DNA from: Fodinibius roseus
GTDB lineage: Bacteria; Bacteroidota; Rhodothermia; Balneolales; Balneolaceae
NCBI RefSeq assembly: GCF_900129315.1
Contig: NZ_FQUS01000001.1
Location: 62,001 to 126,000 of the forward strand
Length of the DNA: 64,000 nt
Direction of reading: 5' to 3'
Shown: positions 3,293 to 53,511 of the stretch, piece after piece
How the letters are laid out: the number at the start of each line of letters is the position of its first letter
How positions within the stretch are numbered: the first letter of the stretch is position 1
Notes under the pieces: model-generated
What the model was told of the DNA's origin: nothing
The model's input: the letters and a program-made list of their open reading frames with translations, nothing else
Databases searched by the model: none
Made by a program: the position numbers and the translations under genes

Positions 3293-3293
3293 C

Positions 3294-33125: not shown

Positions 33126-34292
33126 TTAATCGGCATTCGGGTTAAAACCGTTTACTACCGCATGAGCAATAAAGTAGATGTCCCCGGATAACCCCTCTAT
33201 TTCATAGGTGTATTCCGTGATATCATTGTGGTTTTCCTGGTTTCCATACTGTCCCGGGGCCACCGTAAAGTTGCCGCTGCCTTTATTTGAAGCATAGGGA
33301 TCACTGCCGGCATAAAGATGGGTTTCGGAAAGCGTATACAGATTCCCGGTAAATCCTGTCTCGGTCATCTTATAGGTGACGGTGAGAGTTCCGTTCGAGT
33401 AATTTACGATAAGTTCACCAACACGCGTGCCTTTGTTCAGATCACACTGTCCAGCACCGGCATAAATGTCATACGTAAGATCTCCACTCGGATCGGATAA
33501 TGTACCGTTTGTCCACCCCCATCTGTTAAAAGAGACACCCGGTATGATTGTCTCGTCGAAACAGGACGAGGAGGTATTGTCCACTACTGTTTGACCATTC
33601 GCTGTTGTGGTTTTGACGGCAAATGCAGTTTCATCAGCGGTAATGATCGTTTGACCGTCATTTTCGATAACGGTTACTCCCTGTCCACTGTTCTTCTTTT
33701 TATTTTTAGCAGAGGCAAGATCGGTTTCTACCCGGCTTACGATATCCTTTACTTTTTGGACATCAAAAAGAGGCGTTCCATCCTTATATACGCGTGGATC
33801 AATTTCATCATACCCGGAGATCTTATCCACATCAAATGGCGGACTATCGATAAGCGACCAGATAATGACCTGTATTTCCTTTGCGGTTAGCTCCGGGTCA
33901 CTGGCTCTGAGATCGTCTTTAATGCTCATGAAATAGTTTAACTTTTTCCATGATTCGTGACCAGCTGTAGAATAAAGTCTGGCTCCGTTTTGGATACCAA
34001 AGGCTTCTTCCTCATTCCATTCGATACACCAGGCCTCTCTCTCAACGCCGTCATTCAGCCGAACGGTCAGGAAACTATCCTGGTTGTCTTTTTTCTTTAT
34101 TTCCATACTTTCGATTTCTGCACCAGTGATAGGAGTAACTTCTTTTATTTGCTCGAAGCTTTCTTCGATACCGGTATCAGTGCTGGGAGCATTACATGCC
34201 GAGATAGCAAATAGAATCCCCATCAGTATAGTTGTAATTGCTAACGTACTATTTTTAAACATGATAGTATTATTGTATTTATTGGCTGCCAT
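33126..34292 (-). CDS. Surface lipoprotein with Cys...Gln thioester-like domain
   Basis: A 388-residue putative lipoprotein. The signal ends AISAC (Cys33). The N-terminal domain (about 60-150) holds EAWCI (Cys89), ARLYST, WKKLNY and EIQVIIWSL (Gln141). This pattern resembles thioester-forming domains, in which a Cys and a Gln side chain bond. The C-terminal half has SFNRWGWTNG, an AGAGQCDLNKGTRVG segment and VTYKM/HLYAG strands, a beta-rich domain. It is a paralog of the lipoprotein at 52840. It reads divergently from the methyltransferase operon, behind a sigma-54-like promoter at 34331-34346. An ATG ten codons in (MFKNS) is an alternative start. Confidence 0.8.
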   Translation of the reverse strand: MAANKYNNTIMFKNSTLAITTILMGILFAISACNAPSTDTGIEESFEQIKEVTPITGAEIESMEIKKKDNQDSFLTVRLNDGVEREAWCIEWNEEEAFGIQNGARLYSTAGHESWKKLNYFMSIKDDLRASDPELTAKEIQVIIWSLIDSPPFDVDKISGYDEIDPRVYKDGTPLFDVQKVKDIVSRVETDLASAKNKKKNSGQGVTVIENDGQTIITADETAFAVKTTTANGQTVVDNTSSSCFDETIIPGVSFNRWGWTNGTLSDPSGDLTYDIYAGAGQCDLNKGTRVGELIVNYSNGTLTVTYKMTETGFTGNLYTLSETHLYAGSDPYASNKGSGNFTVAPGQYGNQENHNDITEYTYEIEGLSGDIYFIAHAVVNGFNPNAD

Positions 34293-34330
34293 ATAGATAG
34301 CCTGTTATTATTAGAAGTACCCATACAAGG

Positions 34331-34346
34331 TCAAAAAGTGTGCCAC
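34331..34346 (-). promoter_or_regulatory. Sigma-54-like promoter before the minus-strand lipoprotein
   Basis: On the minus strand, GGTGGCACACTTTTTGACC has GG then ten bases then GA, like the site at 30359. The expected start is near 34320, about 28 bases before the lipoprotein ATG at 34292. This gives a short leader with an AACAGG ribosome site. Confidence 0.6.
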
Positions 34347-34610
34347 CTATTAACCCGTCAGTTGAAACATCCTGTGCAGCTTAGAAATAGCCTTTTTTTT
34401 ATCTCTCCTATACATATTGGGCGATTTTTACGCACGGCTAAAGCTATTTACACAGTTAAAACAAATAGCCTTTGTATGTCGAACGCCGAAGTTCAGGGGA
34501 GCTCCACCAACCGAATGACACCTTTTTGTGATCGTTCTTTAAATAAAACATCAATATTTAAACGGCTGGACTTGTCATACCGCTTCGCTGAATCCGGGGA
34601 CAGCATGGTT

Positions 34611-34625
34611 GAGTAATTCTTTCAT
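34611..34625. promoter_or_regulatory. Degenerate palindromic enhancer-like site
   Basis: GAGTAATTCTTTCAT keeps one perfect half-site (GAGTAA), while the second half (TTTCAT) matches TTACTC only weakly. It ends 149 bases upstream of the promoter at 34775, the same distance as in the 52593/52760 and 59494/59657 pairs. Confidence 0.5.
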
Positions 34626-34774
34626 AGTTGAACCTGAAAAATTACCCGTTCCCCTTGTTATATTTTTACTACAATTTCCTCTCGTTCTTTTCTTACAAAT
34701 ATAAATGCCCTCCATGCTCTTTTCGGGTGTATTTGAACGATAGGATCTACTAATCTTCAGCCCACATATCAAAT

Positions 34775-34790
34775 TGGCATAACTATTGTA
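34775..34790 (+). promoter_or_regulatory. Sigma-54-like promoter before the methyltransferase operon
   Basis: TTGGCATAACTATTGTATT: GG at 34776-34777 and GT at 34788-34789, ten bases apart. It shares extended sequence with the sites at 52760 and 59657, including the TATT after the -12 block. Start expected near 34801, leader about 83 bases. Confidence 0.75.
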
Positions 34791-34883
34791 TTCAATAGAA
34801 TGGATGCAGGACGCGATTCAACCGAATAGGATGGTTGGCAGCAGGGGGCATCCGGTTCAAAACGAAGTAAGTTTATTGATGAC

Positions 34884-36137
34884 ATGATGGATGAATCAAC
34901 AACTACCAATAATAATAAATGTCTTAATTGTTCAAGTTCACTCGAGAATACCTTTGTGGATTTAGGGACATCACCCCTGTGCGAGGAGTTTGTAAAACCG
35001 GAGAATATTAACAACGGTCAACAATTCTACCCGTTGCATGCCTATGTATGCGATGAGTGCTTTTTGGTGCAAGTGGGAGAGTATGTAAGCCCCCGGGAAA
35101 TTTATTCGGATTATTATTATTTCTCATCCTATTCTGATTCATGGTTAGCACATGCGAAGGAATATGTTGAAATGATGAGGGACAACTATGGGATTAACCA
35201 GGAGAGCTTTGTCGTTGAAATAGCCAGTAATGACGGTTACCTGTTGCAATATTTCAAAAAGGAAGGAATTCCGATTCTTGGTGTGGAACCCTCGGACAAT
35301 GTAGCAAAGGTGTCTATTGAGAAGGGGATTCCCACCGAGCAGCTGTTTTTTGGTAAAGAAACGGCCAGTGAGCTTCAAAAGAAATACAAGTCAGCGGATT
35401 TGATACTGGGTAACAATATTTTGGCTCATGTTCCCGAAATCAATGACTTTATCGAGGGACTGGATATGCTGTTGGGTAATAAAGGAATTATGACGTTCGA
35501 GTTCCCGCACCTGCTTCAGCTCATTGAGAATAATCAGTTTGATACGATTTACCACGAGCATTTTTTCTACTTCTCACTTATTACCATAGCGTCGATTTTT
35601 AAAAAGCACGGAATGAAAATTTTTGACGTACAGGAATTGAGTACGCATGGGGGATCTGTAAGAATTTTTGTGACGCGGGAATCTAACCAGGATTATCAAG
35701 TGAGTGATAAGGTTGCAAAGATGGTCTCGATTGAAAAGGAGAAAGGGTTTCTCGACATAGATTTTTATAGAGGATTTGATGAACGTGTACGGCAGACAAA
35801 AACGGATCTATTGGAATTGTTGATCGATTTAAAAAAACAAGACAAGACCATAGTGGGTTACGGGGCTCCCGGTAAAGGCAATACGCTGCTGAATTATTGT
35901 GGCATCAGGAGAGATTTTATCGATTATACGGTTGATCGAAACCCCAATAAACAGGGGTATTATCTGCCGGGTTCCCTGATTCCGATTTTTCATCCCGACA
36001 AGATCAGGGAGACAAAACCGGATTTTGTTTTTATTCTTCCCTGGAATCTGAAGGATGAAATTATGCAGCAAATAAAGTATGTGCGTGACTGGGGAGGTAA
36101 ATTTATTGTACCTATTCCCGCACCTGTTATTATTTAA
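34884..36137 (+). CDS. Sugar C-methyltransferase (class I SAM-dependent, zinc-finger type)
   Basis: A 417-residue methyltransferase of the type that C-methylates nucleotide sugars (TylCIII/NovU-like layout). Near the N-terminus CLNCSSS and CDECFLVQVG form a zinc-binding four-Cys module. The SAM site is VVEIASNDGYLLQYF near residue 112. A DTIYHEHFFYFSL segment holds the conserved His pair. A C-terminal domain has VGYGAPGKGNTLLNY, typical of this family. It heads a long plus-strand operon that continues to about 47640, and the next gene starts 18 bases later. Confidence 0.88.
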   Translation: MMDESTTTNNNKCLNCSSSLENTFVDLGTSPLCEEFVKPENINNGQQFYPLHAYVCDECFLVQVGEYVSPREIYSDYYYFSSYSDSWLAHAKEYVEMMRDNYGINQESFVVEIASNDGYLLQYFKKEGIPILGVEPSDNVAKVSIEKGIPTEQLFFGKETASELQKKYKSADLILGNNILAHVPEINDFIEGLDMLLGNKGIMTFEFPHLLQLIENNQFDTIYHEHFFYFSLITIASIFKKHGMKIFDVQELSTHGGSVRIFVTRESNQDYQVSDKVAKMVSIEKEKGFLDIDFYRGFDERVRQTKTDLLELLIDLKKQDKTIVGYGAPGKGNTLLNYCGIRRDFIDYTVDRNPNKQGYYLPGSLIPIFHPDKIRETKPDFVFILPWNLKDEIMQQIKYVRDWGGKFIVPIPAPVII

Positions 36138-36155
36138 TTAAAAATCAGCAAAGAT

Positions 36156-36971
36156 ATGAAAGTTGTACTGTTTTGTGGCGGCTTGGGCATGCGGATGCGA
36201 GATTACTCTGAAAAAGTACCCAAACCGATGGTAAAGCTGGGTTACCGTCCCTTGCTTTGGAATGTAATGAAGTATTATGCTCATTTTGGACATAAAGATT
36301 TTATTCTTTGTCTGGGGTATAAAGGAGATTATATAAAACGATATTTTGTTGAGTATGAGGAGTACACCTCCAATGATTTTATACTTAATGACGGGGGAAG
36401 AGAAGTTAAATTGCTGAACAGTGATCTGGATGACTGGAACATTACCTTTGTCGATACGGGAATGACCTCAAGTGTGGGGGAACGACTCATGAAAGTACGT
36501 CCCTATCTCGAAGGTGAGGATATGTTTCTGGCAAATTACGCAGACGGTTTATCTGATCTGCCGCTTGATAAGATGATCGACAATTTTAAAAGCATCGACA
36601 AGATTGGCAGTTTCCTGGCTTATCAGCCTACCCAGAGCTTTCATGTGGTCGACTTGGAAGACGACGGTGAAGTGAACGGTATAAGTCCCATTTCACAGTC
36701 AGGACTATGGATCAATGCCGGGTACTTTATTTTTAAGCAGGAGATTTTTGACTACATGAAAGAGGGAGAGGATTTGGTCGTTGAGCCCTTTCAGCGGCTT
36801 ATCCGGCTTAATCAGCTGTACGGGTATAAATATGATGGCTTTTGGGCCGCCATGGATACGTTTAAGGACAAGCAACTCCTGGATGATCTGTATGCAGAGG
36901 GGAAAACGCCCTGGAAGGTCTGGTCCGAAAATAATAGAGTAGCACAAAACGGAGTAAAGGAATTATGCTGA
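36156..36971 (+). CDS. Sugar-1-phosphate nucleotidyltransferase (glucose-1-phosphate cytidylyltransferase-like)
   Basis: A 271-residue enzyme that makes an activated nucleotide sugar, most like glucose-1-phosphate cytidylyltransferase. It has VLFCGGLGMRMR (nucleotide site), KPMVKLG, a YADGLSD metal-site segment, and the C-terminal WAAMDTFKDKQLL typical of RfbF. This implies CDP-glucose as product, but the motif differs enough that another nucleotide sugar is possible. It overlaps the PIG-L gene by 7 bases. A C-methyltransferase beside it suggests a branched or methylated CDP-sugar. Confidence 0.85.
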   Translation: MKVVLFCGGLGMRMRDYSEKVPKPMVKLGYRPLLWNVMKYYAHFGHKDFILCLGYKGDYIKRYFVEYEEYTSNDFILNDGGREVKLLNSDLDDWNITFVDTGMTSSVGERLMKVRPYLEGEDMFLANYADGLSDLPLDKMIDNFKSIDKIGSFLAYQPTQSFHVVDLEDDGEVNGISPISQSGLWINAGYFIFKQEIFDYMKEGEDLVVEPFQRLIRLNQLYGYKYDGFWAAMDTFKDKQLLDDLYAEGKTPWKVWSENNRVAQNGVKELC

Positions 36972-37618
36972 ACGCAACATTTTCGGTACCCCCGGAAAAA
37001 GGACTTTCACTATTGTTGTTAGGGGCCCATTGTGATGACATCGAAATCGGGTGCGGAGGTACGCTGCTAAAAATGATCGAAGATTACAAAATAGACCGGA
37101 TTATGTGGGTGGTCTTCAGTTCCAATGAAGTTCGAAAAAAAGAAGCTGTTACAAGTGCAGAACAATTTCTAACATCAGTATCGAATGTGGATGTACAGGT
37201 CTTTGATTACACAGATGGCTATTTGCCCTCCGTATGGAGTACGCTTAAAGATGAATTTGAGGCAATAAAAGAAAGGATTACACCGGATTTCATATTTACG
37301 CACTACCGGCACGACTGGCACCAGGATCACCGCCTTATCAATGAGCTGACATGGAATACTTTTAGGAATCATCTCATATTTGAGTATGAAATACCAAAAT
37401 ATGACGGAGACCTGGGAAAGCCGAATTTTTTTGTCCCTCTTACTGAACAGTATATAGAGCAAAAAAAGAAAATTATTGTTGAGAGCTTTCAAAGTCAGAG
37501 TGACAAACAGTGGTTTGATGAGACATTATTGACGTCAATAATGCGAATAAGAGGAGTGGAGTGTGCATCAGCATCAAAGCATGCGGAAGCATTTTACAAC
37601 CGCAAGATGGTACTATAA
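36965..37618 (+). CDS. PIG-L family deacetylase
   Basis: A 217-residue zinc-dependent N-deacetylase. The metal-binding motif LLGAHCDDIEIGCGG (AHxDD) is near residues 20-33, and HYRHDWHQDHRLINE supplies the second His-rich motif. It is cytoplasmic and probably removes an acetyl group from an amino sugar intermediate. Overlaps its neighbour upstream by 7 bases and touches the sulfotransferase start downstream (TAATG). Confidence 0.9.
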   Translation: MLNATFSVPPEKGLSLLLLGAHCDDIEIGCGGTLLKMIEDYKIDRIMWVVFSSNEVRKKEAVTSAEQFLTSVSNVDVQVFDYTDGYLPSVWSTLKDEFEAIKERITPDFIFTHYRHDWHQDHRLINELTWNTFRNHLIFEYEIPKYDGDLGKPNFFVPLTEQYIEQKKKIIVESFQSQSDKQWFDETLLTSIMRIRGVECASASKHAEAFYNRKMVL

Positions 37619-38547
37619 TGGAGACCCGTAAATCGACATATTCTCAAGTCAGCCAGACCTACAGGATACATCCTGTAGTCGTATTTTTATGTACGCCGAG
37701 GTGCGGTACCCAGTGGTTGCAAAAAAACTTAAGCGAAGTTTATGCCGGCGAAGCTATTGTGTTGCATGAACCCGTGGGAAAGGGGTATAGACCGAAAGTT
37801 AATCTGGGCCGATATCATTCGCCGGTCGAACCGGAGGATAACAGTACGTTACATAAGCACCTGGATTTTATTGAAGATACAACTGATCATATGAACTATA
37901 TAGAGATCGGTTGGCCGAGTATTGCGGGTGTTCCCGAGTTGTACAGGCAATTCAGAGGGAACTTAAAGCTTGTGCATTTATATCGAAACCCGATTAAGGT
38001 AGCTGCTTCCATGGTTACTCACAACTGGTATACGGGCAAAATAAGGGACCGGTTTGAAAATTTGGAGTTAAATCCCTTTGATGAATCCGCGCTACTGTCT
38101 GAATACAAGGAGAGTTGGGAAGGATTAACCCTCTTTGAAAAGGCGCTTTACTACTGGACAGAAATAAATCTCCGGGCACGGGAAATTCAATACCGCTTTC
38201 CGAATATTCCTTTTTATTCTCTCAAGTTTGAAAATTTATTTGAAGAGAATAAGGAGATTCGCCGTATTACGTTGCTCGAATTACTCTCGTTTATGGGACT
38301 TGGTTACGATGGTAAAATATTAGAAGCGACGGAAATACCCTATGACAGGCATCATCATAAGGCTACTGTCGAAATAGACTGGAAGGACATTTATGCCCAT
38401 CCGCAGACTATTGAACTGGCTAATAAATTAGGCTATCGTTTTGATACAAAAATGGACCTCCGGAGGTATAACGGCTCTCTTTACCGGCAAATTATTTCGA
38501 GGATTAAATCAGTATTAGATAGAATTGTTGGCAACCATAAGACCTGA
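37618..38547 (+). CDS. Sulfotransferase-domain protein
   Basis: A 309-residue enzyme likely to transfer sulfate from PAPS to a sugar. The PAPS 5'-phosphosulfate loop is CTPRCGTQWLQKNL, and VHLYRNPIKVAASM is the 3'-phosphate motif. No signal peptide is clear. An earlier GTG/ATG frame from 37561 overlaps the PIG-L gene; the ATG at 37618 overlaps its stop codon (TAATG), which suits translational coupling. Sulfated sugars are common in surface polymers of marine and halophilic bacteria. Confidence 0.85.
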   Translation: METRKSTYSQVSQTYRIHPVVVFLCTPRCGTQWLQKNLSEVYAGEAIVLHEPVGKGYRPKVNLGRYHSPVEPEDNSTLHKHLDFIEDTTDHMNYIEIGWPSIAGVPELYRQFRGNLKLVHLYRNPIKVAASMVTHNWYTGKIRDRFENLELNPFDESALLSEYKESWEGLTLFEKALYYWTEINLRAREIQYRFPNIPFYSLKFENLFEENKEIRRITLLELLSFMGLGYDGKILEATEIPYDRHHHKATVEIDWKDIYAHPQTIELANKLGYRFDTKMDLRRYNGSLYRQIISRIKSVLDRIVGNHKT

Positions 38548-38734
38548 TACAGGTATTGATGTTGATATTTTGTTTGAAAACAGTAACCAGAATTGAGGAA
38601 GCCGTAAGAAGCACGTATAACTAAGAGAGGTTTTAAATACAGGAGAGCGGTTCAGATTAAGTAGATCCAATGAAAAGTGCTGTTGGCACGGTTCTATAAT
38701 AGAAAATAAAGTGTTAAACATTATGAGAGGACAA

Positions 38735-40096
38735 ATGAGTAATATTAATATCGTTAATGTTGATTTCGCTGACGTCGAATCAACGCAAATGAGTTTTTCA
38801 GAGTCAAACAGGCTACGAAAGCGAGCCCACCAGATTATACCGGGCGGTTGTCATACCTATGCCAAAGGGGATGATCAATACCCTGAAAATTCGCCCGGTT
38901 TCATATGCCGCGGCGAAGGATGTCACGTAATGGATGTGGACGGCAATGAATTTATCGAGTATGGCATGGGACTCCGCTCCGTTACGCTGGGACACGGGAA
39001 TAAACGAGTCGCTAATGCAGCACATGAAGCGGCCTTGCAGGGGATTAACTTTCTAAGGCCGTCGCCTCTTGAGCTTCAGCTGGCAGAAGAGATGCTTTCG
39101 CTGCTGCCGCATGGCGATATGATCAAGTTCGGAAAAAACGGATCGGATGTCACAAGTGCGGCGATAAAACTGGCACGTGCCTATACCGGCAGGGACAAGG
39201 TTGCCGTGCCATCGAACCAACCTTTCTTCTCTGTAGATGATTGGTTTATCGGTACGACTCCCATGGATGCCGGCATACCCGATCAGGTACGGAATCTGAG
39301 CGTTCATTTTACGTATAACGACATAGAAAGTGTTCAGTCGCTGTTTGACCGCTATCCCGGTGAAATCGCCTGCCTGATCATGGAGCCGGCCAAATATGAA
39401 GATCCGGAGGACTCTTTTCTCCATAAAACGAAAGAAATTTGTCACAATAATGGCGCCCTGTTTATTCTTGATGAGATTATTACCGGCTTCCGGTGGCATC
39501 TGAATGGCGCTCAGCAATATTATGATATTGAGGCTGATTTGAGCACTTTTGGCAAAGCCATGGGCAATGGCTTCCCCATATCAGCGCTGATCGGGAAAGA
39601 AGAATATATGAAGGCGGGGGGAATACATCATGATGAAGAGCGAGTTTTTCTGTTGTCGCAAACCTACGGTGCAGAAACCGGCTCCCTGGCTGCTGCTATT
39701 GAAACGATTAATATTTACCGTGAAGAGAACGTAGTCGATTATCTCTGGGATATCGGTAGGCAACTGAAGGGGGGATTATCGGATATTATTAGTGACCTGG
39801 GCCTTGAGGGGTATTTTACCTTGAGCGGGCATCCCTGCTGCATGGTATACGGGACGAACAATCGAAACTGCCGGCCATCCCAACGTTTTCGGACACTTTT
39901 TTTGCAGGAAACGATTAAGCAGGGGCTGCTGATGCCCTCCCTGATTGTGAGTTACGCCCATACCGAAGAGGATATCGCATTCACGTTGCGGGGGATCAGG
40001 AAAGCGTTGTCGGTTTATAGAAAAGCGTTGGAAGAGGGGGTACATCAATATCTCGCGGGCCCTTCTGTAAAACCTGTATTTAGAAAATTCAGTTAA
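38735..40096 (+). CDS. Class III aminotransferase (glutamate-1-semialdehyde aminomutase-like)
   Basis: A 453-residue PLP enzyme. It has the class III signature FILDEIITGFR and the PLP-Lys segment STFGKAMGNGFPISAL (Lys near 273). It resembles glutamate-1-semialdehyde 2,1-aminomutase, but in a sugar locus it is more likely a nucleotide-sugar or related aminotransferase. The ATG at 38735 is preferred, with AGAGG about five bases upstream. A GTG at 38711 and an ATG at 38723 lie upstream in frame. The 187 bases before it contain a TTGGCAC sequence without a -12 partner, which I did not call. Confidence 0.85.
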   Translation: MSNINIVNVDFADVESTQMSFSESNRLRKRAHQIIPGGCHTYAKGDDQYPENSPGFICRGEGCHVMDVDGNEFIEYGMGLRSVTLGHGNKRVANAAHEAALQGINFLRPSPLELQLAEEMLSLLPHGDMIKFGKNGSDVTSAAIKLARAYTGRDKVAVPSNQPFFSVDDWFIGTTPMDAGIPDQVRNLSVHFTYNDIESVQSLFDRYPGEIACLIMEPAKYEDPEDSFLHKTKEICHNNGALFILDEIITGFRWHLNGAQQYYDIEADLSTFGKAMGNGFPISALIGKEEYMKAGGIHHDEERVFLLSQTYGAETGSLAAAIETINIYREENVVDYLWDIGRQLKGGLSDIISDLGLEGYFTLSGHPCCMVYGTNNRNCRPSQRFRTLFLQETIKQGLLMPSLIVSYAHTEEDIAFTLRGIRKALSVYRKALEEGVHQYLAGPSVKPVFRKFS

Positions 40097-40108
40097 CAGA
40101 TCGATCAA

Positions 40109-41119
40109 ATGACTACTCAAACAAGCCTGAAGCAGGGAAAATCCATCAAAAAAGAGGAAGAACCGTTTGTGTCCGTCCTAACGCCAGCGTACAACGGAGA
40201 GGAATTTTTACGGGAGTGTATTGAAAGCGTGCTTAAGCAGGATTACGACAACTGGGAGTATGTACTGGTTAATAATAAGAGTACCGACAGTACCCTGGAG
40301 ATTATAAAAGAGTATGCGGCCCTGGATTCCCGGATACGAATTCACAATAACGAGGAATTCCTGCCCCAGATGGAAAACCTGAATCACGCCTTCCGACAGA
40401 TATCCCCGGAAAGCAAATATTGCAAAGTAGTGCATGCGGATGACTGGCTGTTCCCCGAATGTTTGTCCCGCATGGTGGAGGTGGCCGAAGAATACCCGAG
40501 TGTGGGCATCGTAAGTGCGTACCGGCTGGATGGGAATAAAGTTGAATTGGATGGCCTGCCATATCCCAGCAATTTTAATTCCGGCCGGGAGATCGCCCGA
40601 AAATATCTTTTGTATGGCTTTTCCAAATTTGGCTCTCCCTCATCACTTCTCATTCGATCGGAGTTGATCCGCAAAAGAGAGAAGATGTATGATGAATCGT
40701 TCCTGTCGTCCGATACAGGTGCCTGTCTCGATCTTTTAAAAGAGTCTGACTTTGGCTTTGTCCACCAGGTGCTGACCTACACACGTCTCCACGAGAACAG
40801 TGTTACGAATACACTGGCAGAAGAATCCTTTGCCTCTATTCACGGGGAATTGGCCTTTCAACTGAAATACGGTCCCTATTTTTTGACTGAGGAGGAATAT
40901 AAAAGAAGGCTTTCTCAGAAAGTGAATCTGTTTTATATCCTGCTGGCCAGGAATTTTGTGGATGAAAAATCAATATCAAAGTTCAGGGAGCAAATAAAAA
41001 TACTTGAAGAGCTGGAAATACCATTCAAAACCGGCTGGTTCTTCAAAAATCTTGTGAGAGAACTGTTCCTGCAATTTTTCAAACTGTTCGGTTTTGAATT
41101 AAAGAAAGCTGATAAATAG
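40109..41119 (+). CDS. Glycosyltransferase family 2
   Basis: A 336-residue GT-A enzyme. It begins, after a 20-residue lead, with VSVLTPAYNGEEFLREC and continues WEYVLVNNKSTDS and KVVHADDWLFPE (the DDW replaces a DxD). The donor is unknown. Starts 12 bases after the aminotransferase stop. Confidence 0.9.
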   Translation: MTTQTSLKQGKSIKKEEEPFVSVLTPAYNGEEFLRECIESVLKQDYDNWEYVLVNNKSTDSTLEIIKEYAALDSRIRIHNNEEFLPQMENLNHAFRQISPESKYCKVVHADDWLFPECLSRMVEVAEEYPSVGIVSAYRLDGNKVELDGLPYPSNFNSGREIARKYLLYGFSKFGSPSSLLIRSELIRKREKMYDESFLSSDTGACLDLLKESDFGFVHQVLTYTRLHENSVTNTLAEESFASIHGELAFQLKYGPYFLTEEEYKRRLSQKVNLFYILLARNFVDEKSISKFREQIKILEELEIPFKTGWFFKNLVRELFLQFFKLFGFELKKADK

Positions 41120-41121
41120 CT

Positions 41122-44352: not shown

Positions 44353-44370
44353 ATGACGATATGAACTGGT

Positions 44371-45501: not shown

Positions 45502-46627
45502 CCCAATCAAAATCTTAATTACAGGAGATACCCATCTTGGCAGTGGACGCGTTGAAAGTCTTGCGATTACCAATTCAACAGAGCAACTATTTGGCAATTT
45601 TACAAGTAAGATTCAGAATGCTGACATTTCAGTGACAAATTTGGAATCTCCTTTAATTGATAAGGGGAGCACTATTTCAAAGATTGGACCAAATTTAAAA
45701 AGCCCGGTTCAATCGTTGAAAGTCCTTAAAAATGTTGGTTTCAATCTTCTTACCCTTGCAAATAATCATATTATGGATTATGGGGAGGAGGGACTTTTGT
45801 CTACTCTCAAAGCCTGCTCTGAAACCGGTATTGAGACTGTAGGAGCGGGAAAAAATTCGAAAGAAGCCAGCCAACCGTTTATGAAAGCAATTAAGGGGAC
45901 CCGTGTAGGAATTCTCAATATTGCCGAAAATGAATTTGGAACTACAAATAATGGATCACCGGGTGCCTATGCTTTGAACCCCGTAAAAAATTTTTACCAG
46001 ATTAATAAAATTAGTGAAGCCGTCGATAATCTTATTGTGGTAGTTCATGGGGGACATGAAAGATATCCGCTTCCGAGTCCAAGAATGAAAGAAACATATC
46101 ATTTTTTTATTGATGCCGGTGCGGCTGCGGTAGTGGGTCATCATCCTCATTGTTATAGTGGCTATGAAGTATATAATAATGCGCCTATTTTTTACAGTAT
46201 CGGCAATTTTATGTTTGATAAATATACGTCAGCACAGTCGGACTGGAGTAAGGGATATATGGTGGAATTGAATATTGATAATGAGAGTTTGGAGTTCGAT
46301 ATCATACCTTATATTCAAAATGCTGAAAATGCTGGTCTTCATCCTCTGGATAAAAAAGAATCTGGACTTTTTGATGATAATATTTCAAAACTCAATGCTG
46401 TAATTTCTGACAATGAAGAATTAGATAGAAGATTTAAAGAATTCTGCGAATCTTCGCGCAATCGTTATAGTGCTTATATTGAGCCTCATTCTATTAGATA
46501 TATACACGCGCTTAGAAATAGAAAATTATTTCCTTCTTTACTTAGTAAAAGAAAGAAAAAGTTGCTTTTAAATCTAACACGATGTGAATCTCATAGAGAT
46601 GTCCTTCAAAATTTACTTGAAGAATGA
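45494..46627 (+). CDS. CapA family protein
   Basis: A 377-residue protein of the CapA/PgsA fold (calcineurin-like metallophosphatase-related). ILITGDTHLGSGR, VTNLESPL, LANNHIMDYGEEGLLST, and VVGHHPHCYSGYEVYNNAPIFYSIGNFMF are diagnostic. CapA proteins take part in poly-gamma-glutamate or related surface polymer formation; the role here is unknown. The start overlaps the end of the previous gene (ATGAGTGA). Upstream in-frame TTG at 45485 is an alternative. Confidence 0.9.
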   Translation: MSDPIKILITGDTHLGSGRVESLAITNSTEQLFGNFTSKIQNADISVTNLESPLIDKGSTISKIGPNLKSPVQSLKVLKNVGFNLLTLANNHIMDYGEEGLLSTLKACSETGIETVGAGKNSKEASQPFMKAIKGTRVGILNIAENEFGTTNNGSPGAYALNPVKNFYQINKISEAVDNLIVVVHGGHERYPLPSPRMKETYHFFIDAGAAAVVGHHPHCYSGYEVYNNAPIFYSIGNFMFDKYTSAQSDWSKGYMVELNIDNESLEFDIIPYIQNAENAGLHPLDKKESGLFDDNISKLNAVISDNEELDRRFKEFCESSRNRYSAYIEPHSIRYIHALRNRKLFPSLLSKRKKKLLLNLTRCESHRDVLQNLLEE

Positions 46628-47640
46628 AAATAGCTATACATCACAAAGAAAATGATTTCAGCTCCAGTTGGATAGAGCACTGTGAAAAAAAACAGATTGA
46701 TTATAAAATTGTCAATTGTTATGACAATGATATTATTGATCAAGTAAATGATTGTGACGCTTTGATGTGGCATTTTCATCATGCGAAACCTGAGGATGTA
46801 TTGTTTGCTAAACAATTGATCTACGCTTTGCAGACATCGGGAAAAAAAGTTTTTCCTAACTTTCAGACCTCGTGGCATTTTGATGATAAAGTCGGACAGA
46901 AATATCTTTTGGAAGCAATTGGAGCATCCTTGGTTCCTTCCTATGTATTCTATGATAAACAAAAAGCATTACAGTGGATTGGAGAAACGACCTTTCCTAA
47001 AGTCTTTAAATTGCGGAAAGGTGCTGGTTCAGCCCATGTAAAACTGGTAAAGAATAAATCGGACGCAAGAAAATTGGTGCTGAAAGCATTTTCACGAGGG
47101 TTTAGCCAGTATGACAAGGTAGCAAATTTAAAAGACCGCTGGTATAAATATAAAAAGGGTAAAACGGGATTGTGGAATCTCGTAAAAGGTGTACTAAGAT
47201 TTGCTAAAACTACTGAGTTTGCAAGAACAGAAGGTAGAGAAAAAGGCTATATATATTTTCAGGACTTTATCCCAGACAATGATCATGATATTCGTGTAGT
47301 AGTTATTGCCGATCGTGCTTATACGATTAAAAGAATGGTAAGAGAGAGTGATTTTAGGGCTTCAGGGAGTGCAATAAAATATATGGACAAAGAATTATTC
47401 AAAGAAGGGACCATTAAGCTGGCATTTGAAATTACTGAAAAATTAGAAGCGCAATGCCTTGCGTTTGATTTTATATATGATGGAGAGGAGCCGAAAATTG
47501 TGGAAATAAGCTATGGGTTTAGAACCCATGAATTTCCTGGATTCTGGGACAGAGATCTCAATTGGCACGAAGGTTCTTCAAATGCTCCTGGATATATGGT
47601 GGAAAGCTTGACCGCTTCAATTCAATCAGAAATAGTTTAA
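46624..47640 (+). CDS. ATP-grasp domain protein (RimK-like)
   Basis: A 338-residue ATP-grasp enzyme that probably joins a carboxylate to an amine or thiol using ATP. KVFKLRKGAGSAHVKLV near residue 125 gives the ATP-binding Lys and Gly loop, and IYFQDFIPDNDHDIRVVVIADRAYTIKR the ligand segment; VEISYGFRTHEF is the metal-binding end. The substrate is unknown. It is the last gene of the long operon and is immediately followed by insertion-sequence remnants. Confidence 0.85.
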   Translation: MKIAIHHKENDFSSSWIEHCEKKQIDYKIVNCYDNDIIDQVNDCDALMWHFHHAKPEDVLFAKQLIYALQTSGKKVFPNFQTSWHFDDKVGQKYLLEAIGASLVPSYVFYDKQKALQWIGETTFPKVFKLRKGAGSAHVKLVKNKSDARKLVLKAFSRGFSQYDKVANLKDRWYKYKKGKTGLWNLVKGVLRFAKTTEFARTEGREKGYIYFQDFIPDNDHDIRVVVIADRAYTIKRMVRESDFRASGSAIKYMDKELFKEGTIKLAFEITEKLEAQCLAFDFIYDGEEPKIVEISYGFRTHEFPGFWDRDLNWHEGSSNAPGYMVESLTASIQSEIV

Positions 47641-47649
47641 CAAGGGTTG

Positions 47650-47970
47650 CGTAAGCTAAACTTTGTCCGGGTTGTTGTTTATCAAGGTTCCGTGTTAAGT
47701 CCAGCGGAAACCGATCGCCGGGAGTGTAAACTGAACTCTGTCCGGTTTGTGTATTTTTTGTGGTTACGGGTTAAAGCCAGCGGCAGTCGATCTCCAAATC
47801 GAATGGCCAGCTGCTGGACGGTTAAGGCCCAGTTTTGTAGCGGGCTTGTCTATTTATTTTCGATGTTTTTGGTCGCCAGATATACCAGCTTGAGCAAGGC
47901 CATATCGTTGGTGATCGGGCCTTTGGTTTTGATGACCTTTCGCAGTTGTAGGTGATGATAGGTACTTGTC
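47650..47970 (-). pseudogene. IS256-family transposase C-terminal remnant with in-frame stop
   Basis: Read on the minus strand, 47960 back to 47760 gives HHLQLRKVIKTKGPITND, then ALLKLVYLATKNIENK, a TAG stop (47850-47852), and then TSPLQNWALTVQQLAIRF. This is the end of an IS256/Mutator-family transposase, where a Trp normally stands at the TAG. The sequence before it is lost. A terminal-repeat-like end, GTGTAAACTGAACTCTGTCC, lies at 47724-47743, and a second decayed end at about 47650. No intact transposase exists in the window. Confidence 0.75.
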
Positions 47971-48110
47971 CACATACTGTGTCTGTCGGTTTCTTTGCAT
48001 AGATTAAAAAGATATCCGGTTTGTGCTTAACGTTTCGCCACTATCAATCAAGTCAGGTGTGTTTTTTAAGGAAGCCCCTGATTTAGCTGTACATTAAATT
48101 TACGCACAAA

Positions 48111-48140
48111 AGCCAGGATTATCTTTCGGTAATTCCGGCT
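48111..48140 (+). terminator. Terminator-like hairpin upstream of the LRR lipoprotein
   Basis: AGCCAGGATTA pairs (with one bulge) with TAATTCCGGCT, followed by TTTCTTTTT. It resembles the perfect hairpin at 50795-50824 in sequence, so one may be a copy of the other. Confidence 0.7.
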
Positions 48141-48424
48141 TTTCTTTTTCCCACCTATGTTAAAAATTGTTTTCCCGAAATTTTTCCAAAGTATAATCTT
48201 TTGGGGCCCATCGTTTTATATTTTTTGTAAAAAAAATAAACATTTAACGTAGTATTTAGGAACATTATCGCGTAGCAATAAGTAGTAATACATGTAATAA
48301 ATTTATTACATATTTTGTAATTTAATAAACATATTGATTGTAGAAATAATTCTACGTCAATTCTTGGGGTGATATCCTCTCATTTTGTGGTCTTTTTTAA
48401 TTTAAAATTCCTTCTCGTCAGCAT

Positions 48425-50656
48425 ATGAAACATAGATTTCCATACTTTTTAGTAGGCTTCATTATCCTTTTAACACTTGTACAATGTAAAAATTCAATAA
48501 CCGAAACAGAGACCAAATCACATCTAAATAAAAAAATCGAATTAATTGCTCCTGAAATTGATTCAGAGCAATCTACTTTCCCCACCTTTAAGTGGAAGAA
48601 AACCGAGGAAGTCCAAACTTTTCAGATTCAATTATCAACGGATGAAGATTTTGCTACGATGAACATTGATAGCATTATCGACACCACCTCATTCACCCCC
48701 CCAAATCTTCAAAATGATACTACTTTCCACTGGAAGATAAGAGCTAAAAATTCCGAAAGTGAAGGACCTTGGTCTGAAACCTGGAACTTTAAGACAATTG
48801 GGCAAAATACAAAGCCTGAGGGAGACACCTTATCCGATCCTTTTCAAATTGCACCTAAAGACGGAGCCAGCGGTACTTCATTACAAACTACTTTTAAATG
48901 GAAAGCTGTTGATGGTGCTGATTTCTATATCCTGCATGTAAGTCAAGCCGATCAGATGGTGGTAGATGAGCAGGTAAAAGGAACGACGTATACTCCTAAA
49001 GATGAACTAATCCCTGAAGAAACTCATCACTGGAGAGTAAGGGCAGTAAAGGATGGTAATAAAGGGAAATGGTCGGAGATAAAGGAGTTTGCAACTGCTA
49101 AAAAGATTGATACACTCAACGCTCCGTCACTCATCTCCCCTGAACATAAAGCCAACAACTCCTCACTGAAACCCACATTTGAATGGGAGCCTGTGGATGG
49201 GGCAGATTACTATATATTGCATGCAAGTCATACAGATCAGATGGTAGTAGAGGAAGAAGTAAAAGGAACTACGTATACCCCTGATAATGAGTTTACACCG
49301 GAAGCTATCCATTACTGGAGAGTTCGTGCCGCAAAGGATAAAGGAAAATCCTTAGGGAATTGGTCGGAAATAGATGAATTTACGACTACTTCACAAAATT
49401 CCGATAATGACAATAATAGTGAAAATAATAGTACTGGAGATGTATCGGGTGATCAGGATGCCTTGATGGATTTGTACGAAGCTACGGGCGGTGACCGGTG
49501 GAAAAACAACAGTGGCTGGGGCAATGGCGATCCCTCCAATGCCTGGCATGGTGTGGAAGTCAATGCAGAGGGTCGGGTCGTCCGGTTGGAACTTTTTGGT
49601 AATGGATTAAACGGTCGTTTGCCGGAATCTATCGGTAACTTGACCGAGCTTAAATACCTGAATATTAAACAGAATGCTTTGGAAGGAGAAATTCCTTCAA
49701 CAATCGGAAACTTGAGAAAGGTGGTGTATTTGCTATTATCTGGTGTTCCAGAGGATCCTCCAACGAATCCTCAGCATAATATCCATCAGGGCAAAACGGA
49801 TGAGAGCGGGAACACCTTCACTGGGGTCATTCCCTCCACCATAGGGAAACTGTCAAATTTAGAATACATTGAACTTTCCGGTTCGCAAGTAACCGGACGC
49901 ATACCACCGGAAATTGGTAATGCAACGAATCTGAAGTTTATCGCTTTCAGCTGGAACCCTAAACTTACAGGAGGCATTCCAGCTACGATTGGTAACCTCC
50001 AAAATTTGGTTTGGCTTTATGTGCGAGCCAGCTCCCTGGATGGCACAATACCTGAGGAATTAGGTAAAGTGAGGAGTCTTAGGACGATCCATCTTGGCTA
50101 TAACGATGAACATGGGGGAGAGGGATTGCATGGGGTGCTGCCTGACTTAAGGAATCTCACTATGCTGAGAAATTTCAACGTTGATAAAAATAACTTATCT
50201 GGCGAGTGGCCTCACTATTGGAATAACGGCAAATTTGACAATCTGGTATCCTTGCGTGCATCGTGGAATGACTTTTCCAGCGATCAAATACATGGGTTTG
50301 AAAACCTTTCACACTTGGTAGTCTTTACTGTGACAGGAAGCGATATCAACGGAACACTCCCGAATAGCTTTAAGGATATGTCAAACCTGAAAATATTCTC
50401 CCTTGCGTGGACAAACATATCAGGTGAGCTGCCCCAGTCAGGATACAGCGGTTATCGCCAGCTCAGACAAATACGATTGAACAGCACCAAACTAAAAGGA
50501 CATATCCCTGCAGCTTTCTTTGAGGCTGCTGAAAACGACAAGTTGAGACGCTTATTTCTGAGTCACAATGAGTTTACAAGTGTAGATGAGGAGGCAATGA
50601 ATAGTGTATCAAGTCCTGTACTTGAAACCATCGATGTAAGTAACAATAACTTTTAA
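48425..50656 (+). CDS. Surface lipoprotein with Fn3-like repeats and leucine-rich repeats
   Basis: A 743-residue lipoprotein, signal ending LVQC (Cys21). Three fibronectin-like repeats follow at about 38-120, 140-222 and 238-325, the last two nearly duplicates (both with VDGAD and YILH). From about residue 340 to the end is a plant-type leucine-rich repeat region (LPESIGNLTELKYLNIKQN and similar) starting with an N-terminal cap ALMDLYEATGGDRWKNNSGW. It probably binds sugars or proteins at the cell surface. Bases 49459-50212 match bases 51165-51918 without visible difference. Confidence 0.88.
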   Translation: MKHRFPYFLVGFIILLTLVQCKNSITETETKSHLNKKIELIAPEIDSEQSTFPTFKWKKTEEVQTFQIQLSTDEDFATMNIDSIIDTTSFTPPNLQNDTTFHWKIRAKNSESEGPWSETWNFKTIGQNTKPEGDTLSDPFQIAPKDGASGTSLQTTFKWKAVDGADFYILHVSQADQMVVDEQVKGTTYTPKDELIPEETHHWRVRAVKDGNKGKWSEIKEFATAKKIDTLNAPSLISPEHKANNSSLKPTFEWEPVDGADYYILHASHTDQMVVEEEVKGTTYTPDNEFTPEAIHYWRVRAAKDKGKSLGNWSEIDEFTTTSQNSDNDNNSENNSTGDVSGDQDALMDLYEATGGDRWKNNSGWGNGDPSNAWHGVEVNAEGRVVRLELFGNGLNGRLPESIGNLTELKYLNIKQNALEGEIPSTIGNLRKVVYLLLSGVPEDPPTNPQHNIHQGKTDESGNTFTGVIPSTIGKLSNLEYIELSGSQVTGRIPPEIGNATNLKFIAFSWNPKLTGGIPATIGNLQNLVWLYVRASSLDGTIPEELGKVRSLRTIHLGYNDEHGGEGLHGVLPDLRNLTMLRNFNVDKNNLSGEWPHYWNNGKFDNLVSLRASWNDFSSDQIHGFENLSHLVVFTVTGSDINGTLPNSFKDMSNLKIFSLAWTNISGELPQSGYSGYRQLRQIRLNSTKLKGHIPAAFFEAAENDKLRRLFLSHNEFTSVDEEAMNSVSSPVLETIDVSNNNF
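49459..50212 (+). repeat. Exact 754-bp direct repeat, copy 1
   Basis: The first copy lies in the LRR lipoprotein gene. It is the same as 51165-51918 as far as I can read (offset 1706), including the 251-residue protein stretch. Divergence starts abruptly on both sides. Confidence 0.9.
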
Positions 50657-51057
50657 AGGTCTCTTAGGATATAAAGGTAAAGTAATGTTTTAATATAAAA
50701 TTTTTCAAGTAATTTTCTGGGAGGGGTAAATGTAAATTGAATAGGTATCTCAAATATTTCGATTTACACTATCTATTCTATCCTTATTCACAGAAGCCGG
50801 AATTGTCTCAGTATAATTCCGGCTTTTTTATTATATTCACTCCTATGATATTTTACTTACATAAGGTATCTAGTTTATGCGAAATGATCTAAAATAGATT
50901 ATCAATATCAGGGATCATGAATTAATTTCTTTCCAGTGTATCAGGGTTGCGATTTAAGTTCAGCAGTATTCAGTGTCCTTATATTGATTTTTTAAAATAG
51001 AATTAAAAGTTTTGTTATTCTACATAATTTTAAAGACTATTCTGATATAAGGTGCAA
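50657..51057. other. Gap between the two LRR genes
   Basis: About 400 AT-rich bases with one strong terminator (50795-50830). I see no sigma-54-like motif before the second LRR gene. Confidence 0.6.
50795..50830 (+). terminator. Strong Rho-independent terminator after the first LRR gene
   Basis: AGCCGGAATT (50795-50804) and AATTCCGGCT (50815-50824) are perfect arms, with a TTTTTT run. It closes the first LRR unit. Confidence 0.92.
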
Positions 51058-52440
51058 TTGATTACAAGGCTAAATAACAAAGGTATTTTATTCTTACTCC
51101 TTTGGGTTTTCACTTCGGTCAATGTATTTTCACAATCATTAACTGGTACGTCGAGCGACCGACGTGCCTTGATGGATTTGTACGAAGCTACGGGCGGTGA
51201 CCGGTGGAAAAACAACAGTGGCTGGGGCAATGGCGATCCCTCCAATGCCTGGCATGGTGTGGAAGTCAATGCAGAGGGTCGGGTCGTCCGGTTGGAACTT
51301 TTTGGTAATGGATTAAACGGTCGTTTGCCGGAATCTATCGGTAACTTGACCGAGCTTAAATACCTGAATATTAAACAGAATGCTTTGGAAGGAGAAATTC
51401 CTTCAACAATCGGAAACTTGAGAAAGGTGGTGTATTTGCTATTATCTGGTGTTCCAGAGGATCCTCCAACGAATCCTCAGCATAATATCCATCAGGGCAA
51501 AACGGATGAGAGCGGGAACACCTTCACTGGGGTCATTCCCTCCACCATAGGGAAACTGTCAAATTTAGAATACATTGAACTTTCCGGTTCGCAAGTAACC
51601 GGACGCATACCACCGGAAATTGGTAATGCAACGAATCTGAAGTTTATCGCTTTCAGCTGGAACCCTAAACTTACAGGAGGCATTCCAGCTACGATTGGTA
51701 ACCTCCAAAATTTGGTTTGGCTTTATGTGCGAGCCAGCTCCCTGGATGGCACAATACCTGAGGAATTAGGTAAAGTGAGGAGTCTTAGGACGATCCATCT
51801 TGGCTATAACGATGAACATGGGGGAGAGGGATTGCATGGGGTGCTGCCTGACTTAAGGAATCTCACTATGCTGAGAAATTTCAACGTTGATAAAAATAAC
51901 TTATCTGGCGAGTGGCCTGATTACTGGAACAATGGAAGCTTTACTAATTTAATATCATTACGTGCCTCCTGGAACAACTTTCACAGTGATCAGTTGCACG
52001 GCTTTGAAAATCTTACTTCACTGCGTGTTTTCACTATAACAGGGAGCGATATAAATGGCACATTCCCCCAATCCATAAACAGGTTATCCAATGCAATAAT
52101 TATTTCAATAGGATGGACAAACATTTCGGGTGATTTGCCTCAATCGGGTTGGAATTTTCATCAGCTAAGGCAAGTTCGTTTTAATAACGCTAACCTGACG
52201 GGACATATTCCCGGGAACTTTTTTGAAGCAGCTGATAACAGTAATTTAAGACGTTTATATTTCCAAAATAATAATTTCACGAGTATAGATTATAGGGCCT
52301 TGGGAACTCTTTCAAGTCCTAAACTTGAAACCGTTAATATTAGTGGAAATTGTCTATCATACGAAGATCATATCAAGCCTGCTGTGGATTTTCTTTCACA
52401 CATTAATTTCAAATATGAAAATCAAATAGCACCTGACTAA
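51058..52440 (+). CDS. Secreted leucine-rich repeat protein
   Basis: A 460-residue protein with a signal peptide of the SPI type ending near VFS/QS, then the same LRR region as the first protein. The 251-residue LRR part is identical to that of the lipoprotein; the last 150 residues diverge. A TTG start at 51058, with AAGG 5 bases upstream, is chosen; GTG at 51052 is also in frame. It lacks the Fn3-like repeats. A short C-terminal cap with SYEDHIKPAVDFL ends the chain. Confidence 0.85.
   Translation: MITRLNNKGILFLLLWVFTSVNVFSQSLTGTSSDRRALMDLYEATGGDRWKNNSGWGNGDPSNAWHGVEVNAEGRVVRLELFGNGLNGRLPESIGNLTELKYLNIKQNALEGEIPSTIGNLRKVVYLLLSGVPEDPPTNPQHNIHQGKTDESGNTFTGVIPSTIGKLSNLEYIELSGSQVTGRIPPEIGNATNLKFIAFSWNPKLTGGIPATIGNLQNLVWLYVRASSLDGTIPEELGKVRSLRTIHLGYNDEHGGEGLHGVLPDLRNLTMLRNFNVDKNNLSGEWPDYWNNGSFTNLISLRASWNNFHSDQLHGFENLTSLRVFTITGSDINGTFPQSINRLSNAIIISIGWTNISGDLPQSGWNFHQLRQVRFNNANLTGHIPGNFFEAADNSNLRRLYFQNNNFTSIDYRALGTLSSPKLETVNISGNCLSYEDHIKPAVDFLSHINFKYENQIAPD
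51165..51918 (+). repeat. Exact 754-bp direct repeat, copy 2
   Basis: The second copy, within the secreted LRR gene. See 49459-50212. Confidence 0.9.
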
Positions 52441-52592
52441 CTTAAAAAAGGATCCTAATACCGATGTGAATAACTCAGTGGAATTTACTCTTTTTTGGTT
52501 TGTAAGCTTTGAGCCAAACTACTTGATTTTGTCCAATATACCCATCTATAAATCAATGAAAGTGTGTAAATCAAGATTGTAATCCATTATAT

Positions 52593-52607
52593 GAGTAATT
52601 TTTACTC
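52593..52607. promoter_or_regulatory. Palindromic enhancer-like site
   Basis: GAGTAATTTTTACTC: inverted GAGTAA half-sites with a three-base spacer, ending 152 bases before the promoter at 52760. Confidence 0.75.
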
Positions 52608-52759
52608 GTAGATTCAAAAAAATAAGCATGATTAGTATTAATGTGATTTTGGTAGAAGGTCGTTTTTTAAAAATCGTTTCCCCCTAAAGCTGCTATTTGA
52701 TCCTTAAATAAGCTTTCAGTATTACATATAGGGTAGTTGAGAGAGTATTTTTTTCAGAT

Positions 52760-52777
52760 TGGCATAACTTTTGTATT
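52760..52777 (+). promoter_or_regulatory. Sigma-54-like promoter before the small lipoprotein
   Basis: TTGGCATAACTTTTGTATT: GG at 52761-52762 and GT at 52773-52774. Start expected near 52785, with GGGAGA 12-17 bases before the lipoprotein ATG as a ribosome site. Confidence 0.75.
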
Positions 52778-52839
52778 AATGGGTAATAAGTAAATCATAT
52801 ACCATAATAATAAAATCTTTTTGGGAGAGCAGTCCAATT

Positions 52840-53511
52840 ATGAAAAAACTAACAGTAAAATTCGTCAATTACCTTCTGGTAGCTATTGTAATAACCGTGA
52901 GCATTTCATGTAAAGATAGCGTGACAGGAGATCCCGATCTTTCGGAATCACTTGAGCCTGTTGAAGATGTACATATGGTACCGGGTGCAGAGAATACAAC
53001 TCTTACAGTGAACCTTAATAAAGAAGACGCATATTTCAATGTGCAATTTGAAAATATCGAACAAAACGATGTGATTGCTAACGGTATCCGAGATGCGTGG
53101 TGCATTGACGTCTGGAAACCTATCGATCACAATGGGGGTACTTATACTGATATAGAACTCTATTCCACGGATCGAGTGGAAAAATGGTTGCCTCTTAATT
53201 ACCTGTTGAATATACAAGAAGAGTTGATCAACGAAGATACGGAAATCAGCTGGCGTGAAATCCAGTTAGCGATCTGGTCCCTTCGTGCAAATCCGGAGTT
53301 TAATTTGGATGAAGTAGATCTAGTAGAGCTTCCGGGTGAGTTTAAAAAAAGTGGGGAACCAAATTTCAGCCAAGAAAAAGTGGAGGAGATATTGAATATC
53401 GTTCAAGAAGGTTATGAGGATTTCGATTTTTCGACTGGATCAAAATTTGCGGTGATTGCTGCAATGCCATCTGATCTCCAAACGTTTATCACTATCGTAG
53501 AAAAAAAGTAA
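52840..53511 (+). CDS. Lipoprotein with Cys...Gln thioester-like domain (short paralog)
   Basis: A 223-residue lipoprotein; the signal ends SISC (Cys24). Residues 80-150 have DAWCI (Cys88), IELYST, WLPLNY and EIQLAIWSL (Gln142), the same order as in the minus-strand lipoprotein at 33126-34292. The C-terminal beta domain of that protein is missing here. It is the first gene behind a sigma-54-like promoter and is followed after 146 bases by a glycosyltransferase, so it may share a transcript. Confidence 0.82.
   Translation: MKKLTVKFVNYLLVAIVITVSISCKDSVTGDPDLSESLEPVEDVHMVPGAENTTLTVNLNKEDAYFNVQFENIEQNDVIANGIRDAWCIDVWKPIDHNGGTYTDIELYSTDRVEKWLPLNYLLNIQEELINEDTEISWREIQLAIWSLRANPEFNLDEVDLVELPGEFKKSGEPNFSQEKVEEILNIVQEGYEDFDFSTGSKFAVIAAMPSDLQTFITIVEKK

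Follow-up and report, generated by a model that had tools for sequence, protein, structure and literature searches.

Thioester domains (TEDs) of Gram-positive bacteria are 'chemical harpoon' domains, which in some species bond covalently to their targets. Can a comparable domain be carried by lipoproteins of Bacteroidota? This question is raised by a stretch of the Fodinibius roseus genome (contig NZ_FQUS01000001.1, positions 62,001 to 126,000; 'the window' denotes this whole stretch of 64,000 nucleotides). It encodes two lipoproteins, one short and one long, for which the original prediction proposed a thioester-like layout, with Cys88 (short) or Cys89 (long) paired with Gln142 or Gln141. As judged from sequence comparison and a predicted structure, the two proteins probably belong to a divergent family of TED lipoproteins in Fodinibius-type bacteria, which resembles Gram-positive TEDs distantly. 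The new elements are this unrecognised lipoprotein family and a corrected residue pair; the likely thioester glutamine is probably Gln214 of both proteins.

Two paralogous lipoproteins and their features

Both open reading frames (ORFs) are present in the window as originally described, and their principal features are as follows.

52840..53511, plus strand: short putative TED lipoprotein, 223 aa (from ORF list, homology, conservation and model)
52909..52911, plus strand: codon of the lipobox Cys24, short protein (from the alignment of homologues)
52990..53505, plus strand: residues 51-222 of the short protein, its thioester-like domain and the stretch that aligns with solved TEDs
53101..53103, plus strand: Cys88, proposed thioester Cys, short protein
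53263..53265, plus strand: Gln142 of the helical QxxxW motif, short protein; unlikely bond partner
53479..53481, plus strand: Gln214 in LQTFI, proposed thioester Gln, short protein
33126..34292, minus strand: long putative TED lipoprotein, 388 aa; translation might instead begin at the in-frame ATG of residue 11
34194..34196, minus strand: codon of the lipobox Cys33, long protein
33630..34118, minus strand: thioester-like domain, long protein; assigned from homology alone, the model of this protein being unusable
34026..34028, minus strand: Cys89, proposed thioester Cys, long protein
33870..33872, minus strand: Gln141 of the helical QxxxW motif, long protein; unlikely bond partner
33651..33653, minus strand: Gln214 in GQTII, proposed thioester Gln, long protein
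33129..33620, minus strand: C-terminal domain, long protein; contains a Cys pair of its own (244, 283)

The proteins are indeed paralogous, with 29% identity across about 220 residues (E 9e-22), and the motifs AWCI, LYST, LNY and EIQ..IWSL follow each other in identical order in both. The numbering of Cys89/Gln141 and Cys88/Gln142 is correct, with spacings of 52 and 54 residues, respectively. Their description as lipoproteins also stands; a lipobox-like Cys is found at residue 33 of the long and residue 24 of the short protein. In the latter, Cys88 and the lipobox Cys are the sole Cys residues. No other family match was found in the 5.08 Mb genome at E 10 or better.

Family members in related genomes

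Matches to the family occur in 34 of 195 related genomes (own included), spanning 9 of 70 genera and, within the order, three families, namely the window's own and two others; a single genome can hold up to six. The similarity between members is far above what sequence comparison would yield by chance. The short protein has, for example, a 55% identical relative in Fodinibius salsisoli (order Balneolales). A profile search of 395 genomes of the phylum gave matches in 14, 12 of them from the window's family; the remaining two were short and marginal (E 0.005 and 0.009) and were taken as chance.

From the family loci, 85 distinct ORFs were collected; five fragment or truncated ORFs were dropped and 80 were aligned. 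These homologues range from 177 (truncated) to 726 aa, and the domain directly follows the lipobox. A Cys occupies the lipobox position in 79; the exception is an ORF truncated at the edge of its contig. Cys88 is kept in 73 of the 80 and is preceded by Trp (66), Tyr (4) or Phe (3), while Gln142 and Trp146 are kept in all 80. Among 32 short forms, Cys88 is the sole Cys after the lipobox Cys in 30 (of the two exceptions, one has an additional Cys158 and the other is a truncated ORF), which makes it unlikely that Cys88 forms an intramolecular disulfide in the short forms. At one locus (L047), three different TED-like lipoprotein genes follow one another over about 4 kb (67-1368, 1895-2572 and 3010-4104, plus strand).

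Predicted fold

An AlphaFold2 model of the short protein, based on an alignment of 3 sequences, has a mean predicted local distance difference test score (pLDDT) of 63.6 and a predicted template modelling score of 0.61. It includes a helix at residues 138-150, the region of the helical motif. In a Foldseek comparison with the PDB, the top 8 rows are all TED-bearing and derive from three entries (best E 3.6e-3, probability 0.99); no row reached E 0.001 or better. In VIA-align, TED-bearing adhesins take up the 12 best entries (Z 8.0-6.3); the one after them is at Z 3.6. These 12 correspond to about seven different proteins, with Cpa contributing five entries and CpTIE two. The best row is BaTIE (Z 8.0), tied with the next rows. 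Entries 5dcq and 4c0z are counted as TEDs, although their titles do not say so. Best Z values of 7-8 are common for models without a clear match; in this case, the top rows belong to one family and are well separated from the rest. Taken as a model-based assignment, a TED fold is highly probable for the family.

Profile comparison with Pfam thioester domains

Pfam already detects TEDs as such in Bacteroidota, since PF08341 matches above the cut-off occur in 12 of 148 genomes of the phylum, all belonging to one other family. Twelve of the 15 PF08341 matches from Bacteroidota were aligned as a comparison set. In hhalign, the alignment between the new family and these 12 TEDs scores 28.0 (P 7e-4), and places Cys on Cys and helix Gln on Gln. 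None of 200 column shuffles reaches this score (largest 18.7); the reversed profile gives 12.0, and the best of 16 other families built from neighbouring genes gives 20.1. A global run of the alignment extended through Gln214 (P 1.7e-5) is not relied on. The profile link rests largely on the motif residues; it is modest alone and convincing together with the fold. The resemblance to thioester domains in the original prediction is supported by predicted fold and motif order, and more modestly by the profile comparison. The Bacteroidota TED profile in turn matches a streptococcal adhesin weakly (5dcq, E 0.0065).

Existing models recognise none of this directly. A search against thioester-domain models, proposed with the original prediction as a check, gave no PF08341 match for either protein. 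Scanned with Pfam and NCBIfam, the two proteins gave no useful match (a weak Filamin match, E 0.092, lies below the cut-off), the same scans of the 80 domains left the family unrecognised, and PDB sequence searches with the two proteins found no TED. PF08341 was found in 0 of 244 genomes of the class; the search controls were also silent, which leaves its absence there unproven.

In the Pfam-positive Bacteroidota TEDs (L079-L090), the strand position resembling Gln214 is, by eye, Gln in 6 of 12 and Glu, Asn or another residue in the others; some of these domains may therefore form no thioester or use another Gln.

Which glutamine pairs with the cysteine?

According to two published studies, the thioester joins the Cys of a [YFL]C-Phi-zeta motif to the Gln of a weak strand motif, PhiQzetaPhiPhi; a helical motif between the two, TQxxPhiW, present in most TEDs though not in all, contains a Gln and a Trp, neither of which is essential for the bond according to mutagenesis (PMC4450167, PMC6194298). 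In solved TEDs, the helical-motif Gln hydrogen-bonds to the Cys backbone (PMC4450167).

In the new family, the seven homologues that lack Cys88 provide the most informative contrast. Gln214 is missing in all seven, and is present in 70 of the 73 Cys-bearing proteins; the remaining three read AQDQI, in which a Gln stands on each side of the Gln214 column, at a distance of one residue. Because it is absent in exactly the Cys-less proteins, Gln214 is the better candidate. Fifteen columns, from residue 41 onward, are at least 80% conserved in the 73 Cys-bearing proteins. Among these, only Cys88, Trp91 and Gln214 are kept in none of the seven. Trp87, Trp116, Asn120, Tyr121, Gln142, Trp146 and Phe154 are retained in all seven, Leu148 in six, Glu140 and Val188 in five, Phe66 in two and Ser109 in one. 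The spacing between Cys and Gln214 is 120-136 in the 70 homologues that bear both; it is 129-153 in three class I TEDs, as given in PMC4450167.

The structural register points the same way. VIA-align rows end with model residue 222 on residue 275 of 5a0g_B and 269 of 5a0l_A, and with model residue 219 on residue 272 of 5a0d_B. Assuming no gap in the last strand, Gln214 would fall on the thioester Gln in each case, namely residues 267, 261 and 267 (CpTIE/SfbI numbering from PMC4450167). The register derives from range ends only, and 6fwv, which is numbered differently, was left out of the comparison.

The history of the two residues was traced on a quick maximum-likelihood tree, from which the Cys and Gln214 columns had been removed; it is unrooted, with the Cys-less clade at the midpoint. 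A single change suffices for the Cys; Gln214 likewise needs one, or two when the shifted Gln is scored as absent. On this tree, the shared absence of the residues is a single joint change and not repeated co-evolution. The change is read as a loss because TEDs elsewhere carry both residues. Several independent losses of Cys had been expected; the tree calls for one change. Within the Cys-less clade, both positions vary freely, with Ser or Leu at the Cys site and Asp, Glu, Pro, Ser, Tyr or Val at the Gln214 site.

The members of this clade (L049, L062, L024, L060, L056, L076 and L077) are lipoproteins of 599-625 aa that keep much of the TED core. A DUF3466 match lies in the C-terminal part of the two that were scanned (L049 and L024), and also in a Cys-bearing protein of 714 aa (L039).

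That a whole clade, 7 of 80, retains much of the conserved core without Cys and Gln214 implies that the fold can exist without the bond. This lends some weight to the alternative that the family has kept the TED fold and lost the thioester altogether, serving as a non-covalent binding or scaffold domain in which Cys and Gln are packed side chains. Ordinary packing residues should be more variable and change independently, whereas among the other 73 proteins the Cys is invariant and its Gln is displaced in only the three AQDQI sequences, and then by a single residue. Loss of the bond throughout the family is accordingly unlikely.

The pairing originally named, Cys with Gln141/142, is probably wrong, and a thioester between these residues is very improbable. 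Its conservation appeared to favour it, since Gln142 is invariant and the Cys-Gln142 spacing is tightly kept (52-57 in 79 of 80 homologues, 66 in one). The same Gln is equally conserved in the seven proteins that have no Cys to bond with, however, and it matches the TED helix motif, the Gln of which is inessential and contacts the Cys backbone in the structures cited above.

It is equally improbable that the Cys serves some other role, such as intermolecular disulfide dimers or binding of a metal or ligand: a single unpaired Cys of an exported protein could link molecules by disulfides, but this leaves both the joint absence of Gln214 and Cys and the match to TED structures unexplained.

A thioester between Cys88 and Gln214 is therefore the reading to be preferred, and from conservation and the model it appears likely.

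Several observations weigh against this reading. The short-protein model is of moderate confidence only, and that of the long protein (pLDDT 40.2) was not used. The residue before the Cys is mostly Trp (66 of 73, including the window's two proteins), as opposed to the published Tyr, Phe or Leu of TEDs, and the strict PhiQzetaPhiPhi pattern is seen in 27 of the 73 Cys-bearing homologues. The PnTIE row 5a0n (model 223 on 255) puts Gln214 one residue off Gln247. The joint absence of Cys and Gln214 is one event without replication, on an unrooted tree. Further Cys residues after the lipobox occur in 37 of 41 Cys-bearing long forms, which limits the lone-Cys argument to the short forms. The hhalign probability is 26.5%; masking Cys, Gln and Trp lowers the score to 19.5, which exceeds every shuffle and lies below the best other family (20.1). 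The local alignment ends before the strand with Gln214, and extending it through this residue yields 24.3 (P 0.0036). Finally, PF08341 was found in only one of the 80 domains (E 0.11), as one of 22 weak matches of which others were better, and a PDB profile search with the family found no TED.

Comparison with known thioester proteins

With class I TEDs (CpTIE, SfbI, PnTIE and Cpa; PDB 5a0g, 5a0l, 5a0n, 4c0z and 2xi9), the new family shares the predicted fold, the order of motifs (aromatic-Cys, helical QxxxW, later strand Gln) and an N-terminal place in an exported protein; its Cys-Gln spacing is near their low end. The helical TQxxPhiW motif is recognisable throughout, with Gln and Trp in 80 of 80 proteins and, in contrast to class I TEDs, Thr mostly replaced by Ile. 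The family also differs in its Gram-negative host and in its anchor, a lipobox in place of LPXTG.

Class II TEDs (BaTIE, 6fwv; EfmTIE86, 6fwy) have the fold of the head domain in common with the family. According to PMC6194298, Cys71 and Gln266 of BaTIE are 195 residues apart, with an inserted beta-sandwich; the spacing in the new family leaves no room for an insert of this kind. In the PF08341-positive proteins of Bacteroidota, the Cys, an ILNNYYP-like helix, the AIW helix and the following helix align with those of the new family. These proteins differ in architecture; they are open frames of 490-2263 aa with, by eye, Ig-like parts.

Neither protein in the window contains an LPxTG sortase anchor; each has a lipobox Cys instead, and they are not classed as TIE proteins. 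The short form has no room for the isopeptide/ester stalk of TIE proteins, and one 553-aa homologue has a sub-threshold SdrD_B match. Nor are the two proteins to be filed under PF08341 as it stands. The motif CGEQ, which forms the thioester of alpha-2-macroglobulin and complement proteins, is absent from both.

A 2015 survey found TEDs in Gram-positives alone. Divergent TED clusters were added by a study of fibrillar adhesins, the accessible text of which names no Gram-negative TED (PMC9210967). Among the listed titles and opening lines of abstracts in the open-licence literature, none describes TEDs in Bacteroidota; an earlier mention elsewhere is possible.

Genomic surroundings

Both putative TED genes sit in an exopolysaccharide locus. 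Ten of its proteins were scanned, and they include an EpsG-type polymerase, a PGA_cap protein, a glycosyltransferase, a methyltransferase and an aminotransferase. The short gene comes after two genes for leucine-rich-repeat (LRR) proteins.

48425..50656, plus strand: lipobox-like protein with FN3-like and leucine-rich repeats; elsewhere in the genus, its relatives adjoin the short TED gene
51052..52440, plus strand: second LRR protein, a partial duplicate of 48425..50656, directly upstream of the short TED gene

The two LRR genes have a block of 905 bases in common at 95.2% identity, the product of recent duplication or of gene conversion immediately ahead of the short gene.

Neighbouring ORFs of at least 100 aa were surveyed in nine genomes of the genus that have the short form, the window included. 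An LRR gene lies directly upstream of the short form in six (the window, G001, G002, G005, G008 and G010); in G003, it is found downstream, separated by one recognised gene, and none was recognised near the short form in G009 and G011. A locus of this type also holds the long form in the window, G002, G003, G008 and G011; in G010 and G021, the long form lies elsewhere. Short forms from other genera (L131, L132 and L133) speak against a general tie to polysaccharide loci, as they have no recognised relatives of the window's sugar genes nearby, or at most one weak one; nor was the LRR/exopolysaccharide setting of the short gene seen in other genera. In another genus of the window's family, short and long forms stand in tandem (L138 and L140). 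These surroundings fit a surface or matrix role and do not identify the target.

The original prediction also assigned both genes the same type of promoter. This was left unconfirmed by the single test made, which used the Bacteroidota -7 motif TANNTTTG. One match stands some 400 bases before the long gene, and none within the 400 bases upstream of the short gene; the motif is not clearly enriched in the window (55 matches compared with 48.2 expected; 20 of 100 shuffles reach 55).

Relatives of the long protein's C-terminal domain occur in 10 of 198 genomes of the phylum (own included), in open frames of 198-3312 aa; the domain has no Pfam match above the cut-off. Its occurrence inside very long open frames suggests a surface-type domain without a Pfam name.

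Proposed mode of action

Each protein would consist of a lipid-anchored N-terminus, a short linker and a compact, divergent TED without the large insert of class II. Once the exported protein has folded, the side chains of Cys88 (Cys89 in the long protein) and Gln214 would condense with loss of NH3. The resulting internal thioester would have the QxxxW helix next to it, an arrangement known from solved TEDs, and would be opened by a nucleophile of the partner, most likely a lysine amine. The partner would thereby become amide-linked to Gln214 while the lipoprotein stays in the outer membrane. Both lipoproteins are presumably surface exposed and located in that membrane.

The most likely use of such a bond would be covalent attachment at the cell surface, although the odds that this is the actual function appear about even. 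Possible targets include a neighbouring surface protein (for example, the adjoining LRR lipoprotein), an amine of the extracellular matrix, or another cell. The anchoring or cross-linking of polymer is a guess from gene location. A more specific proposal, in which Gram-negative thioester lipoproteins, in some genera within exopolysaccharide loci, tether a matrix component (LRR lipoprotein or polymer amine) to the outer membrane independently of sortase, is tentative and rather doubtful.

If true, covalent surface attachment would extend to diderm environmental bacteria, through a family that has several copies in some genomes, carries a lipid instead of a sortase anchor and, in this genus, sits in polysaccharide loci; its role would become testable outside pathogens. 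For such work, the natural clade without Cys and Gln would offer a ready control.

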